Source of the DNA: Bradyrhizobium erythrophlei | GTDB taxonomy: Bacteria; Pseudomonadota; Alphaproteobacteria; Rhizobiales; Xanthobacteraceae | Assembly (NCBI RefSeq): GCF_900142985.1 | Contig: NZ_LT670849.1 | Location: 1,240,001-1,304,000, forward strand | Direction: 5' to 3' | Length of the DNA: 64,000 nt | Part shown: positions 5,633 through 63,943 of the stretch, piece by piece | How the letters are laid out: each line of letters starts with the position of its first letter | Position numbering within the stretch: position 1 is the first letter of the stretch | Position numbers and translations under genes: made by a program | Notes under the pieces: model-generated | The model's input: only the letters and a program-made list of their open reading frames with translations | Databases searched by the model: none | What the model was told of the DNA's origin: nothing

Positions 5633-5799
5633 CTAGTGTTTCGATTCCGAAGTTCGTAGCATTTTTCGGGGCCACGTTTCGAACTTCGGAATCGAAAGAA
5701 CACTAGAAAACCTACTATTTCTAGTGTGGCTTTTGGTTCAAAAGTCCGCATGACGAACTCGCGGCAGAAATGATGCGGACTTTTGAACCGCCACACTAG
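5633..5799 (+). repeat. Composite double-hairpin element, copy 1 (modules A and B)
   Basis: Module A (5633-5706) begins CTAGTG and ends CACTAG, with long arms built around CGATTCCGAAGTTCG and CGAACTTCGGAATCG. After a 14-nt AT-rich spacer, module B (5721-5799) runs from CTAGTGTGGC to GCCACACTAG, with inner arms GGTTCAAAAGTCCGC and GCGGACTTTTGAACC. Both modules carry small bulges on one arm (CTT in A, TTTT in B). The same A-spacer-B arrangement recurs at 13985 and 38246. It ends 14 nt before the DUF3309 start codon, so the leader or promoter of that gene must lie in or across it. I know no name for the family. Confidence 0.85.
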
Positions 5800-13984: not shown

Positions 13985-14149
13985 CTAGTGTCCCGCTTCC
14001 GAAGTTCGTCGCATTTTGCGGAGCCACGTTTCGAACTTCGGAATCGAAAGGACACTAGCAAACTTATTGATCTAGTGTGGCTTTGGTCCAGAAGCCCGCA
14101 TGACGGACTCGCGGCAGTAATGATGCGGACTTCTGAACCGCCACACTAA
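13985..14149 (+). repeat. Composite double-hairpin element, copy 2
   Basis: Module A is 13985-14058 (CTAGTGTCCCG to GGACACTAG), the spacer is 13 nt, and module B is 14072-14149 (CTAGTGTGGC to GCCACACTAA). The base pair T-A next to the GTGT of module A in copy 1 is C-G here. In module B the inner arm pair AAAAG/CTTTT of copy 1 has become AGAAG/CTTCT. The copy lies between convergent genes. Its last bases CTA (14146-14148) are the complement of the TAG stop codon of the DUF4139 gene. Confidence 0.85.
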
Positions 14150-15798
14150 CCGGCCGGCACCATCACGACGCCCTTGTCCTTGGGCCAGCGTACGCGCCAC
14201 GCAAACGCAATTTCCTTCGCGTCGCCAGGCGTCACTTCAACAGCCCATTCCAGGACGCCGCGCTTGTCGCGCACATTGGTCGTGGTCGGCGGCGTCGTCG
14301 CAGGCAGCATCTCGACCTGGATGTCATCGTTTTCGCTGACCGGAAGCTGATCCTCGACAGCGACCCGGATCGGGAAATCATGGCCGTTGCGAATGGCGGT
14401 CTTGAACGCGCGCTCGTCGGTCTTCGAGGTCGTGACGATCAGGCCGGTGGATCCTTCGTTGCGCTTGACGACGGAACGCACGATCTTGACCTTGTCGTCG
14501 GCGCCAAACCCCAGTCGTACCTTTTCCTCCTTGCCGGCTGCCGCCATCTGGCCGCGGCCGACGAACACGCCGTCGCGGTAGATCGAGATCCGGCCCGGCA
14601 ACAACGGCGCATCCTCGCCCTGGATAAAACTCGCCTCGAGAAACGCGGTCGGATCAATCACCGGAACCGAACGCACCACGAGATCGGGCGAGATCGTCGC
14701 GTCGGAAATATAGACGCTCTTGGCACCCTCGCTGGCGCCGACGCTGACGCGGCCCGGAATCCTGAACACGACCTGGAAGCCGCTGACTTCAGCCACGGCT
14801 TTTTTCTCAACGGCCTGATCGGCGAACAGACTCTGTTCCTTGGCGACGTGCGGCTGCAAGGACCGCGCGCCTGCCGGAACGCTTGAAGGGGCCGCCGCCT
14901 GGGCAACGAGCGGATACTGCACGACCAGCGGATTTAGTTCGGGCGCCTTGCCGCCGAGCGCGGTGCGCACCGTCGAAACGCTCAGCGCAACATCCGGCCA
15001 ATCCTCTCCGGTTGCTTGCGTGATTTCGGCACGGCGCACCAGTTCAAGCGCGGGCTTGCGATCCTTCGCGCCGGTGTCGAGGCGGGCATCGTAGAGCGCA
15101 GTCCAGCGCGCGGCCGGCACGGTGTAGGTCACATGCAGCATGGCTTTGGCCGGCGCGTTGGCCGCGAGGCCGATTTTGACCTCAAGCTTGCTCGGCGGTC
15201 GGGTTGCGCGATCCTGTTCCAGACGGGCAATTTCCCGATCGATGTCGCGCTGCCGGCGCTGAGCTTCGCGGATAGCGGCATTCGCCGCAGCGACCTCGTC
15301 CGCGACCGCCGCAAATGCCGCGCGCCAGTCAGCCAGCGGCCTCGCCTCGCCCTTCTCGCCAATTCCCGCGGGCGAGGTTTCGGCGAAGCGCTCGGCGAAT
15401 TTTCGGCGCGCCGTGGCGGCCGCAATCGCGCCGTCGAGATCGGCACGTTCATCCTTCAGCGTCTCGATACGCTTGTCGAGTTCAGGCAGATTGACCGGCG
15501 GCGCCGCGCGGGGCGAGCGGGTGTCAATCGCGCCGATGGTGAGGCCGGCATTGGCCTCGCCTTCCACCCGCAACGACGACGGGTCGAGCTTGAGCGGAAA
15601 GTCCTTCAGCACAAGCGTGGTGTCGCCGGCGGGCAGTTCGACCGTAACGACACGGGTGACACTGGCGCCGTCGGGATAAACGGTGACGGCATCAACCGCC
15701 GATGCTGCCTCGATATCGGCGGCCTCGACCCGCGCCGCGGCAAACGCCGTCAACACGATGATGCTGGTCATAACGACACGATTTACGACAAAGCCCAT
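14146..15798 (-). CDS. Secreted DUF4139 / mucoidy-inhibitor-A-like protein
   Basis: 550 residues. A signal peptide (MGFVVNRVVMTSIIVLTAFAA, then ARVEAADIEA) is followed by a beta domain with VTVYPDGASVTRV, a coiled coil of about 80 residues around LDKRIETLKDERADLDG, and a C-terminal DUF4139 beta domain containing WTALYDARLDT and QATGEDWPDVALSVSTV. The layout matches the MuiA-like family, periplasmic or surface proteins of unclear role. AGGAG 7 nt before ATG 15798 decides the start over 15813. The stop codon TAG lies inside the inverted repeat of a composite element, so the last residues may have been set by its insertion. Confidence 0.85.
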   Translation of the reverse strand: MGFVVNRVVMTSIIVLTAFAAARVEAADIEAASAVDAVTVYPDGASVTRVVTVELPAGDTTLVLKDFPLKLDPSSLRVEGEANAGLTIGAIDTRSPRAAPPVNLPELDKRIETLKDERADLDGAIAAATARRKFAERFAETSPAGIGEKGEARPLADWRAAFAAVADEVAAANAAIREAQRRQRDIDREIARLEQDRATRPPSKLEVKIGLAANAPAKAMLHVTYTVPAARWTALYDARLDTGAKDRKPALELVRRAEITQATGEDWPDVALSVSTVRTALGGKAPELNPLVVQYPLVAQAAAPSSVPAGARSLQPHVAKEQSLFADQAVEKKAVAEVSGFQVVFRIPGRVSVGASEGAKSVYISDATISPDLVVRSVPVIDPTAFLEASFIQGEDAPLLPGRISIYRDGVFVGRGQMAAAGKEEKVRLGFGADDKVKIVRSVVKRNEGSTGLIVTTSKTDERAFKTAIRNGHDFPIRVAVEDQLPVSENDDIQVEMLPATTPPTTTNVRDKRGVLEWAVEVTPGDAKEIAFAWRVRWPKDKGVVMVPAG

Positions 15799-15966
15799 GA
15801 TCTTCTCCTGCAAAGCCTGTGGCGCACAGCCGGTCGGATGACGTCACGACTCGTGATGAGACGCGGCAGGGAAGGAACTGGTTCGATTGGGGTTTCCGTG
15901 CGGCACGACGGCGGCGAGAACGCGGCACACGCCTGCGGCAAATTGCGTCACGCCAACAGCAGGCGA

Positions 15967-17762: not shown

Positions 17763-18935
17763 CTACGCCGCCTTGGCCAACTGCGCCCTGGTCTCGGCGA
17801 AAGCCCAGTCGATCCACTGGGTGAGCAACGCAACATCGCTCGCCTCGATCGTGGCGCCGCACCAGATGCGCAAACCCGCCGGCGCATCGCGATGGCCCGC
17901 AAAGTCGTAACCGGCGCCTTCCTTTTCGACCAGACCGACCATCTTCTTGATGAAGTCGATCTGCGCATCGGTCGAAAGCGAAGCAACCGCGGGATCGGTC
18001 ACCTTCATGCACACCGAGGTGTTGGAGCGGATGGCGGGTGTCGCGGCGAGGAAATCGATCCAGGGCGTCTTCGCCTGCCAATCCTCGAGCACCTTGAGAT
18101 TCTTGTCCGCGCGCGCCATCAGCGCCTTGAGACCGCCGACCGATTTGCCCCAGTTCAATGCATCGAGATAGTCCTCAACGCACAGCATCGACGGCGTATT
18201 GATGGTCTCGCCGACAAAGATGCCTTCGTTGAGCTTGCCACCCTTGGTCATGCGGAAGATCTTCGGCAACGGCCACGCCGGCTTGTAGGTCTCGAGCCGT
18301 TCGACGGCGCGGGGCGAAAGCACCAGCATGCCATGGCCGGCCTCGCCGCCCAGCGCCTTCTGCCAGGAGAACGTCACGACATCGAGCTTGGGCCAGTCGA
18401 GCGGCTGCGCAAACGCCGCCGATGTGGCGTCGCAGATCGTAAGACCCTCGCGCCTGGCGCTGATCCAGTCGGCGTTGGGCACGCGCACGCCCGAGGTCGT
18501 GCCGTTCCAGGTGAAGATGATGTCGGAGGCCGGGTCGACCTTGGAAAGATCGGGAATATCGCCGTAGCCCACGGCAAGCTTGGTCACGTCTTTCAGCTTC
18601 AGTTGGTTGAGGATGTCGCTGGTCCAGCCCTCACCGAAGGATTCCCAGGAAAGCGCGGTGACAGGCCGCGCGCCGAGCAGCGACCACAGCGCCATTTCGA
18701 CCGCGCCAGTGTCGGAAGCCGGCACGATGCCGATCCGGTAATCGGCAGGCACCCCAAGCACATCGCGCGTCAGGTCGATCGCGCGCTTGAGCTTCTCCTT
18801 GCCGATTTTCGCACGATGCGAACGGCCGAGAGCGGCGTCTTTCAGATTTTGCGGGGTCCAGCCGGGGCGCTTGGCGCAAGGGCCGGAAGAAAAATGCGGC
18901 ACGAGTGGCCGCGAAGCGGGCTTCGCTACAGTCAT
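17763..18935 (-). CDS. serC: Phosphoserine aminotransferase
   Basis: 390 residues of the alphaproteobacterial SerC type. It transaminates 3-phosphohydroxypyruvate with glutamate to give phosphoserine, and can also serve pyridoxal phosphate synthesis. Signature parts: [14 protein letters not shown] at the N-terminus, [30 protein letters not shown] and [15 protein letters not shown], which carries the PLP lysine. The ribosome site GGAAGG lies close before ATG 18935 and inside a small hairpin. It is the first gene of a serC-serA unit; the usual partner serB is not in the window. Confidence 0.96.
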
Positions 18936-19020
18936 GATCTACCCTTCCAGATAGCAAGCCTCCCGTTGGGGGGAGGTGTCCCGCCGTCGTGGATAGGGGA
19001 ATCGCCCCAAATCGTCAAGA
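18936..19020 (-). promoter_or_regulatory. Structured serC leader, candidate serC RNA motif
   Basis: On the minus strand the leader holds hairpin CCTCCC / GGGAGG (18959-18976, loop CCCAAC), then CTATC / GGTAG (18939-18954, with a G-U pair), which includes the GGAAGG ribosome site. A conserved leader called the serC motif is known upstream of serC-serA operons in Alphaproteobacteria, and position and two-hairpin shape fit it. The match to that family is from memory and needs a covariance search. Confidence 0.5.
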
Positions 19021-26103: not shown

Positions 26104-26124
26104 GTTTTCGCCTACGCGAAAACG

Positions 26125-26757
26125 TCACATCGGCGGCGCAATGCCGTCGCGGCCGACGCCGATGCGGTTGGTCTCGAGCGAGCCGTCATCCTTCTTCACC
26201 GCACCGAAGATGATGATCTTGGCGCCCGGCTTGATCTCGGATTTTTCGCCGGTGACGAAAGCGACGACCGCCGTGTCCGGCGTCACCATGACCTTCTTCT
26301 CGCCGTCCTTGTACTTGACATCGATGACCTGACCGTCGGTACCGGTCACCTGTTGCGCGACCGTCGCGTTGGTCATCGTCGAGTTCGGACGCAGATCCCA
26401 GGCGCGGAATCCTTCAGCGGCGCCACGCATCGCTTCCGGGAAGATGTGGATCGCGATCGCCTTCTGGCTGCCGTCGGGTTGCGGCATGCCGGAGACGCCG
26501 ATGTAACTGCCTTGCTTAATGTCCGACAGCGAGGTCTTGGCGATGCCGATGACCGTGATGTCGTCGGTGATGTTCACCTTCACATCGTTGCCCTCGCGGG
26601 TCTTGATGCCAAGCGTCTTGCCGTCGACGCTTTCGATGGTGCCGCGGATGCGGGTCGGTGTCGGCGGCTGTTGCGCCCAGGCGCTCGATGCCAGGACGGA
26701 GATGACGGCGAGCGACGCCAGAAGCGTGCTCGGCTGCCAGGAAGAAGCTTTCGGCAT
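26125..26757 (-). CDS. Secreted protein with beta-domain repeats, first of two tandem paralogues
   Basis: 210 residues. A signal peptide ends at SSAWAQQ. The mature part begins PTPTRIRGTIESVDGKTLGI, then TREGNDVKVNITDDITVIGI, a pattern of short strands resembling DUF5666-like domains. A second similar unit follows (VIDVKYKDGEKKVMVTPDT). The C-terminus is DGIAPPM. The gene at 26870-27508 encodes a protein of the same length and order of motifs. Neither has cysteines or catalytic motifs, and a binding or structural role in the periplasm is a guess. Confidence 0.72.
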   Translation of the reverse strand: MPKASSWQPSTLLASLAVISVLASSAWAQQPPTPTRIRGTIESVDGKTLGIKTREGNDVKVNITDDITVIGIAKTSLSDIKQGSYIGVSGMPQPDGSQKAIAIHIFPEAMRGAAEGFRAWDLRPNSTMTNATVAQQVTGTDGQVIDVKYKDGEKKVMVTPDTAVVAFVTGEKSEIKPGAKIIIFGAVKKDDGSLETNRIGVGRDGIAPPM

Positions 26758-26794
26758 GATCTTTACCTCAACGGTTTGGGGCGAACGACAAAGG

Positions 26795-26863
26795 GGAATA
26801 CCCCGCGACTGCGGGGTTATTCCGGGCGGCTGGTGTCCCCGCCCATTTACGCTGGATGGGCGG
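26795..26863. repeat. Two hairpins between the tandem paralogues
   Basis: GGAATA-CCCCGC (26795-26806) pairs with GCGGGGTTATTCC (26811-26823) with one bulged base, and CCGCCCAT (26839-26846) pairs with ATGGGCGG (26856-26863). Both lie in the 112-bp gap between the two co-oriented genes. No clear T-tract follows on the minus strand, so partial termination or mRNA protection is possible. Confidence 0.45.
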
Positions 26864-26869
26864 AAATCG

Positions 26870-27508
26870 TTACATCGGCGGCGTCAGCCCGTCGCGGCCG
26901 ACGCTGATGCGGTTGGTCTCGAACGATCCGTCCGGCAACGGCTTGACGAACGCGATGATCCTGGCGCCGGCCTTGAGGTCGGCTTTTTCGCCGGGAACGT
27001 AAGTCACGACCGGCGTATCGGGACCGACGGTGACTTTTTTCTCGCCGTCCTTGTACTTGATCATCAAGGTCTGGCCGTCAGTGCCAGCCACCTGCTGCGC
27101 GACCGTCGCATTGGTCATGGTCGAGTTCGGCCGCAGATCGTAAGGCCGCGACCCCTCGCCGGTGCCGCGCATGTCTTCCGGGAAGACGTGCACCTCGACG
27201 GCATTCTGCTGGCCATCCGGGCCCGGCACCGTGGTGGTGCCGATGAACGAGCCGAGCTTGATATCGGCGAGCGCAATCTTGACGATTCCGACAACCTTCA
27301 TGTCGGCGCTCATGTGCAGCTTGACATCCTCGCCGCTGCGCGACTTGACCATGATCAGATCGCCATCGACGCCTTCGATGGTGCCGCGCACCCGTGTCGG
27401 CGTCGGCGGCTGTTGCGCGATCGCGCCAAGAACGGAGGCAGCCACCATCGCGGCGGCAATCAGCGGACGGGCAAGCGTCGAACGGGACTTCAAACGGTAC
27501 TTGGGCAT
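26870..27508 (-). CDS. Secreted protein with beta-domain repeats, second of two tandem paralogues
   Basis: 212 residues, closely parallel to the gene at 26125-26757: the same start MPK, a signal peptide, QQPPTPTRVRGTIEGVDG, then RSGEDVKLHMSADMKVVGI, the segment DLRPNSTMTNATVAQQV (shared by both), YKDGEKKVTVGPDTPVV and the end GRDGLTPPM. This one is upstream in the transcript. The shared segments show a recent or well-conserved duplication. The function is unknown; the domain pattern recalls DUF5666. Confidence 0.72.
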   Translation of the reverse strand: MPKYRLKSRSTLARPLIAAAMVAASVLGAIAQQPPTPTRVRGTIEGVDGDLIMVKSRSGEDVKLHMSADMKVVGIVKIALADIKLGSFIGTTTVPGPDGQQNAVEVHVFPEDMRGTGEGSRPYDLRPNSTMTNATVAQQVAGTDGQTLMIKYKDGEKKVTVGPDTPVVTYVPGEKADLKAGARIIAFVKPLPDGSFETNRISVGRDGLTPPM

Positions 27509-38245: not shown

Positions 38246-38409
38246 CCAGTGTCCCGATTCCGAAGTTCGTATTATTTCGCGGCGCCACGTTTACGAACTT
38301 CGGAATCGAAAGGACACTGGAAAGTATTGATCTAGTGCGGCTCTGGTTCGGAAGTCCGCATGACGGACGTGCGGCAGCAATGATGCGGACTTCCGAACCG
38401 CCGCACTAA
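38246..38409 (+). repeat. Composite double-hairpin element, copy 3
   Basis: Module A is 38246-38320, beginning CCAGTGTCCCGATTCC and ending GGACACTGG: the terminal T-A pair of copies 1 and 2 has become C-G on both arms. The spacer is 11 nt. Module B is 38332-38409, CTAGTGCGGC to GCCGCACTAA, where TGTGG/CCACA has become TGCGG/CCGCA, and the inner arm is CGGAAG/CTTCCG. This copy sits in the 376-bp region between the divergent DUF486 and PAS-protein genes, which otherwise holds no gene and should carry both promoters. Confidence 0.85.
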
Positions 38410-63867: not shown

Positions 63868-63889
63868 GTCCGCCATTGGGCCCTCAGCG
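63868..63889. repeat. Intergenic repeat remnant adjoining a composite-element fragment
   Basis: ATGTCCGCCATTGGGCCCTC resembles a Bradyrhizobium intergenic repeat that reads as MSALGQ-like peptides; here it reads MSAIGPS. It directly adjoins the inverted module A fragment at 63890-63943, so two repeat families are spliced at this place. The 290 bp from 63711 to the window end otherwise show no gene. Confidence 0.4.
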
Positions 63890-63943
63890 GAGTTCGAAAC
63901 GTGGCCCCGCAAAATGTTCCGAACTTCGGAATCGAGACACTGG
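63890..63943 (-). repeat. Inverted, truncated copy of composite-element module A
   Basis: On the minus strand it reads CCAGTGTCTCGATTCCGAAG, continues through TTCGGAACATTTTGCGGGGCC and ends ACGTTTCGAACT, where the right arm breaks off. Module B is missing. It shares the loop motif GCATTTTnCGGnGCCACGTTT with copies 1-3, which shows that it is the same family. It lies 180 bp beyond the LysR gene. Confidence 0.7.

Follow-up and report, generated by a model that had tools for sequence, protein, structure and literature searches.

The double-hairpin unit described here, three copies of which lie within a 64 000-nt window of the Bradyrhizobium erythrophlei genome (the window being the whole stretch of DNA analysed), is very probably an IS630-type (Tc1/mariner-like) non-autonomous MITE, built as an inverted dimer, targeted to CTAG and moved in trans. 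Its two hairpins, A and B, occur in a fixed order, and the unit has spread recently, has CTAG as its target with related genomes empty at the corresponding sites, resembles IS630 repeats at its outer ends, and carries a bulge on the inner arm of its hairpins. In terms of origin, the unit would represent a diverged inverted dimer of a foldback of ~75 bp, with A followed by a linker of ~13 nt and by B as an approximate reverse complement of A. The unit has CTAG at both outer ends. An IS630 transposase supplied in trans would bind these outer ends, cut and paste the unit into a CTAG, and duplicate the TA. Less surely, extra bases in the inner arms may shift the inner ends relative to the transposase site and so out of register, such that only the outer ends would be used and A and B would move as a whole.

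Copies within the window

The three copies of the original prediction, at 5633-5799, 13985-14149 and 38246-38409, were confirmed by alignment, each of them reading A, spacer, B on the plus strand, with total lengths of 167, 165 and 164 bp, respectively. Across these, hairpin A spans 74-75 nt, the linker 11-14 nt and hairpin B 78-79 nt. In copy 1, modules A (5633-5706) and B (5721-5799) each begin and end with CTAG, are both found by alignment and covariance model, and enclose a linker of 14 nt (5707-5720). Copy 2 comprises module A (13985-14058; alignment and covariance model), a 13-nt linker (14059-14071) and module B (14072-14149; covariance model), with the outer CTAA of the latter overlapping the TAG stop of a minus-strand DUF4139 gene (14146-15813). 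Copy 3 has a module A bounded by CCAG and CTGG (38246-38320), an 11-nt linker (38321-38331) and module B (38332-38409), both modules again being found by alignment and covariance model. A fourth place, overlooked previously, is a decayed module A on the minus strand at 63873-63943, which has an eroded stem and no B seen beside it, and which is detected by blastn (63888-63943) and by covariance model (31.9 bits).

The compensating pair changes reported for both modules, such as the replacement of CTAG/CTAG by CCAG/CTGG in A, are present in the alignment. The sole correction, a small slip, concerns the unpaired parts said to be kept, as the B loop of copy 3 reads TGCGGCAG and not CGCGGCAG. The surroundings of the three copies do indeed differ: copy 1 is located upstream of a plus-strand DUF3309 ORF, copy 2 sits between converging EamA (plus) and DUF4139 (minus) genes, and copy 3 between diverging DMT_6 (minus) and PAS (plus) genes.

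Copy number and arrangement in the B. erythrophlei genome

A blastn search of the B. erythrophlei genome with copy 3 returned 57 matches, and 30 loci were fetched. Covariance models yielded at least 144 matches for A and at least 139 for B, these being lower bounds from the best 150 of 3890 (A) and 150 of 4520 (B) candidates scored. Removal of opposite-strand duplicates by hand leaves at least 109 A places and at least 88 B places. Amongst the places listed, 73 form A-then-B pairs on one strand, with gaps of 13 nt in 55 pairs, 14 nt in 8 and 12 nt in 7 (i.e. 12-14 nt in 70), and of 11, 16 and 32 nt once each. A script run over the 109 A and 88 B places found no A/B neighbours in any other order within 300 nt, and the fixed order proposed from the three original copies is thus borne out amongst these places. 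Of the 36 A places that lack a B match, most precede a hairpin that resembles B but has a different stem sequence, indicating several subfamilies that share one plan.

A finder based on structure only, demanding CTAG-like ends and at least 20 of 24 Watson-Crick pairs, detected 213 hairpins and 87 clear A+B composites in the pooled sequence fetched from this genome, which is enriched for the element; a control on reversed sequence (16 hairpins) is an unfair null, as reversal keeps inverted repeats. The finder left 40 hairpins single; for 32 of them a weaker partner lies on the bulged side, and the total for the fetched parts of the genome is ~119 composites when such weaker partners are counted. 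The remaining eight lack a partner by that test, with two of these neighbouring each other at 32 nt and one lying close to where a fetched stretch stops. In four cases, adjacent hairpins overlap by one CTAG, as would be expected if new copies had inserted at the ends of older ones.

A relationship that had been missed is a resemblance between the two modules in opposite orientation, with A scoring 26 against the reverse complement of B and 13 against B itself; both values are raised by the palindromic nature of the two modules, and 2000 shuffles reach at most 7. Separately, hybrid hairpins that apparently consist of the outer arm of A and the outer arm of B are seen in the B. erythrophlei genome (G000:C1:3372663-3372748) and in locus L287, as if the middle of a composite had been lost.

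Distribution in other genomes

The original prediction suggested looking for further copies in related genomes, and these were found. Amongst 41 genomes (B. erythrophlei included), 8 match at E ≤ 1e-10, corresponding to 8 of 25 within the genus and 0 of 16 outside it. A sample of the class, again including B. erythrophlei and scored on the best 16 candidates of each genome, gave matches at E ≤ 1e-6 in 14 of 289 genomes, representing 11 of 224 genera. For 26 loci taken from 13 of the class genomes, the structure finder recovered a composite in 17 and none in 9, three of the latter being short loci in which the position of the match was not placed.

An exact palindrome pattern matched at least 118 stretches, with the titles amongst the matches listed including Bradyrhizobium, Afipia, Nitrobacter, Rhodoplanes, Pseudorhodoplanes, Pseudolabrys, Hyphomicrobium, Caulobacter, Phenylobacterium and a Rhodospirillales genome. 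The 80 listed pattern loci contain 164 hairpins, compared with 1 in a dinucleotide shuffle, and harbour 65 distinct composites, some of them from one genome, with gaps of 12-14 nt in 63 of the 65. Composites occur in loci titled Caulobacter, Afipia, Hyphomicrobium, Rhodoplanes, Pseudorhodoplanes and Pseudolabrys, amongst others. The plan that is common to these other Alphaproteobacteria is hairpin, linker of ~13 nt, hairpin, with CTAG at all four hairpin ends; across 102 linkers of 13 nt, the most frequent sequence approximates CAAATATATGATT. Upon inspection, GATTC/GAATC is present within the stems of some subfamilies and missing from others. A shorter relative of ~120 bp, in which a 55-nt hairpin is joined by a linker to another short hairpin, exists in genome G266 (L400 and L409) in many equal-scoring copies. 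Searches of plasmids with two element queries, and of phages with one, returned no match by blastn (the 'distant' setting, E 0.001).

Recent movement and the CTAG target

The related genome G010 harbours seven copies of 165 bp at different sites, with 0-3 differences among them, and the one copy of genome G004 differs from these seven at 3-6 positions. The element of ~165 bp contains no transposase gene, and the seven near-identical copies reveal that it spreads as a unit. With regard to the state of such sites prior to insertion, 150 bp of each flank of eight insertions were joined with CTAG and compared with 194 genomes of the genus, the best two candidates per genome being scored. Both flanks are contained in 26 of the 30 loci fetched, and the left flank only in four (all for L188).

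The element is absent from all 26 of the two-flank orthologous sites. In 13 of the 26, one CTAG stands exactly at the insertion point, as against two in the filled site, and the other 13 are without CTAG, a TA duplication being indistinguishable from a CTAG duplication in this comparison. Both the empty sites and a duplication at the CTAG target, for which the original prediction recommended a search, are therefore found, the latter in half of the sites. Broken down by insertion, the single CTAG occurs in L173 (1/1), L179 (1/1), L184 (8/10), L186 (2/3), L174 (1/10) and L191 (0/1); for L182, no fetched locus spanned the insertion site. The closest orthologous site, L192 (97 % identity), has CTAG at the point, and G010 itself (L199) is empty, and without CTAG, at the insertion site of G004. 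For copy 2 of the window, the one flank compared, beside the end of the DUF4139 gene, shows no element in any of the 29 relatives read; CTAG is present in 4 of them. Copies 1 and 3 gave no two-flank empty site amongst the loci read.

When classed by open frames and third-position GC only, 28 of the 87 B. erythrophlei sites coincide with the TAG stop of a long frame, 16 fall within such a frame and 43 belong to neither class. The figures for other CTAGs of that sequence are similar (32 at a stop, 32 inside and 61 elsewhere of 125), and random positions lie inside a long frame in 626 of 850 cases. Given that element sites resemble other CTAGs, CTAG targeting is enough to explain why genes are mostly spared, and no insertion preference beyond CTAG is claimed.

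IS630 elements with similar ends

CTAG is reportedly also the target preferred by IS630 itself (Tenzen, 1990). For ISY100, a member of the IS630 family, TA is described as being duplicated and the transposase as protecting a 24-bp repeat (PMC2170065). Matches to PF13358 (IS630 endonuclease) number 16 in G010 and 4 in G004, and one IS630 element of G004 has relatives in 99 of 195 genomes of the genus. CTAG is found at both ends in 24 of the 30 genus IS630 loci read, some of these lying at the same site in several genomes, with the remainder (L242, L243, L247, L249, L261 and L270) being divergent, truncated or cut by the contig. The repeats of these genus elements are CTAGTGTCCTGAACCAGAAGTTCG / CTAGTGTCCCGAGTCACAAGTTCG, and the L246 ORF reaches 260.3 bits against NF033545 transpos_IS630 (cut-off 100) and 71.9 bits against PF13358.

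When compared by ungapped identity over nt 5-24 to the better of the two IS630 repeats, outer ends of the double hairpin are identical, in register, at 12.66 of 20 positions for B. erythrophlei (174 ends) and at 14.23 of 20 for the diverse set (130 ends), versus 5.8 and 5.3 when shuffled. Together with the near-identical copies in G010, the empty orthologous sites and the CTAG target, the existence of IS630 elements with such ends upholds the earlier view of a mobile or spreading unit that is not part of one gene.

There are observations that stand against the MITE reading. Using the PF13358 profile, no IS630 transposase gene was found in the B. erythrophlei genome. The same applies to 6 of the 8 other carriers searched, MAGs being among them; in the remaining two, a crude scan found no end like that of the element. 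An exact IS630 partner for the burst in G010 was not found either, IS630 with similar ends has been seen in one genus only, and the 13 of 26 empty sites without CTAG count in the same direction. As no IS630 transposase is found there, the family looks stranded in B. erythrophlei, which may have lost its IS630 partner. Another IS630 of G010 (L234) has ends CTAGTGTTCTG..., and its repeats hold CATTTG, which recalls the CATTCG-type subfamilies of the element; different IS630s may serve different element subfamilies.

Relationship to described repeat families

RIME1 of rhizobia (Osteras, 1995) is similarly a rhizobial intergenic mosaic repeat, and reportedly measures 108 bp and contains two large palindromes. 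No double hairpin was found in the 250 kb of S. meliloti pSymB that were scanned, which may lack RIME1. The CIR repeats of Caulobacter and Brucella were reportedly introduced by Chen & Shapiro in 2003. The original prediction knew no named family for the unit, which is true in part: a literature search, conducted mostly without subscription papers and largely at the level of listed titles, brought up nothing recognised as describing the double-hairpin family or its link to IS630, but an architecture of two inverted-repeat arms and a linker has already been published for CIR (PMC2229807).

Like the element, CIR, which comes closest to it in architecture, is an alphaproteobacterial intergenic repeat with two long inverted-repeat arms, a linker and TA termini (PMC2229807, PMC10969869). 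It differs in size, at ~110 bp versus ~165 bp, the ~120-bp version of G266 being nearer in this respect, and in having GANTC at the terminal loop of one arm, a feature not encountered in the element, where GANTC lies in some stems only. Moreover, the account of CIR in the review (PMC2229807) gives no TIR. RUP of Streptococcus pneumoniae is likewise gene-less, has ends like those of an IS630 (IS630-Spn1) and inserts at TA, but is 107 bp in length, and its treatment in the same review contains no plan of two arms plus linker (PMC2229807). The element reads as one that works like RUP and looks like CIR, but without the GANTC loop described for the latter. That review stated in 2007 that more information was needed on how the CIR repeats of Alphaproteobacteria move (PMC2229807); for repeats of CIR architecture, the present family suggests a concrete answer, namely an IS630-type mechanism with a CTAG target.

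The inner-arm bulge

In 84 of the 87 B. erythrophlei composites, both hairpins carry a stem bulge, mostly of 3 nt, on their inner arm; the same holds for 17 of 17 (15 distinct) from other class genomes and for 61 of the 65 from the 80 loci fetched by a bulge-neutral pattern, the last being the fairest count, as the B. erythrophlei and class copies were fetched with models carrying the inner bulge. Counted from the first base of CTAG, GAAGTTCG or its subfamily counterpart mostly begins at nt 17 in outer ends, which is also its position in the left IS630 repeat. In inner ends the motif mostly begins at nt 20, displaced by additional bases (e.g. TTT) that come after about nt 10, and the bulge thereby places most inner ends out of register. 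Against the IS630 repeats, inner ends reach only 5.83 (B. erythrophlei) and 6.57 (diverse) of 20, where shuffles give 5.3-5.8. Deletion of nt 11-13 in silico raises the inner ends to 12.16 and 11.95, and lowers the outer ends to 5.74 and 6.58.

These values would fit a MITE of two foldbacks with four potential transposase ends, in which a shift of usually three bases would disable only the inner pair and make the dimer, rather than the monomer, the unit that transposes. Such a rule would have outlived replacement of the stems across Alphaproteobacteria, and might explain CIR-type movement. We consider its chances to be a little short of even, owing to the intact inner CTAGs and to the bulge-carrying models used for retrieval. 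Specifically, CTAG is intact in 83 % and 87 % of inner ends versus 79 % and 85 % of outer ends (B. erythrophlei and diverse, respectively), and silent inner ends would not need this, unless pairing within the stem keeps the CTAG. A few inner ends are also in register (the best at 14 of 20 in B. erythrophlei and 17 of 20 in the diverse set), which again speaks against the rule. If true, the rule would be a simple and testable means by which a transposon could distinguish between its own ends.

Paired changes in the stems

Copy 1 folds as RNA at -88.2 kcal/mol, compared with a shuffled mean of -47.7 (z -9.46), and has a z of -10.03 when folded as DNA; none of 200 shuffles folds as well. Covariation was evaluated in 28 full copies from the B. 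erythrophlei genome, leaving out 2 partial ones of the 30 loci. Pairing is maintained in 98.0 % of cells for module A, with changes on both sides in 9 of 25 pairs (shuffled 2.2, sd 1.1), and in 94.6 % for module B, with such changes in 15 of 27 pairs (shuffled 5.0, sd 1.5). These both-side counts are matched for A or B by 0 of 500 shuffles, in a control that leaves relatedness in place. Percentages of pairing in composites from the structure finder are biased, as the finder itself demands pairing.

Mismatches of the G.T and A.C kinds are equally common, with 35 versus 36 of 4176 cells in the 87 B. erythrophlei composites and 19 versus 21 of 3120 cells in the 65 diverse ones, the composites having been oriented by their linker (10 of 152 were not orientable and were counted as read). 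As G.U pairs are not in excess of A.C, selection on the RNA strand is without support here. The earlier proposal of selection for folding, whether of RNA or of extruded DNA, is consequently not established, since copying from arm to arm can also yield paired changes. The case is a warning that compensatory changes in stems are no proof of a functional RNA.

Arm-to-arm copying, by template switching in quasi-palindromes, is indeed a serious contender as the source of the paired changes. It would leave the unit an IS630-type MITE, with the inner bulge inherited and functionless, and its chances we place somewhat below even. The equality of G.T and A.C accords with it, as does the existence of a few perfect palindromes (at 4288067 in B. 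erythrophlei, L279 and L329), such as copying would make; in addition, the linker is conserved too, so that composites may share one ancestor. However, stems differ wholesale between subfamilies, yet the bulge has stayed on its side, and copying across a bulge would erase it.

The stable fold of copy 1 and the paired stem changes are also what would be expected of a folded RNA element (i.e. a small RNA, terminator or mRNA-stabilising hairpin) that is kept for its RNA fold. This is very unlikely, as G.U pairs are not above A.C, and as the empty sites and the recent copies without differences are in keeping with a transposon. Furthermore, no Rfam family lies over the elements at gathering score, and lower-scoring matches of copy 1 are mostly to microRNA hairpins.

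Also very unlikely is a REP/REPIN/BIME-type element whose hairpins, as single-stranded DNA, would be mobilised by a RAYT (Y1) transposase: the GTAG and CGTC REP families published for Bradyrhizobium are likewise palindromic, often paired and intergenic (PMC3733652), and the inverted arrangement of paired palindromes would suit them, but GTAG REPs are described with stems of 6-13 bp, a single GTAG tag and a link to tyrosine transposases (PMC3733652), whereas the element has stems of ~25 bp, CTAG on both sides of each hairpin (at 79-87 % of ends) and outer ends that match IS630 repeats, and the Y1 transposase profile PF01797 has matches in 0 of 3 genomes (G000, G010 and G004) versus 5 of 14 control genomes.

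Other features of the window

Apart from the MITE-like copies, a serC leader (Rfam RF00517) is present in the window on the minus strand at 18934-18986, scoring 67.2 bits against a gathering score of 35. At 26118-27418, a stretch is repeated once at a distance of ~742 bp, with pieces that are 73-88 % alike.
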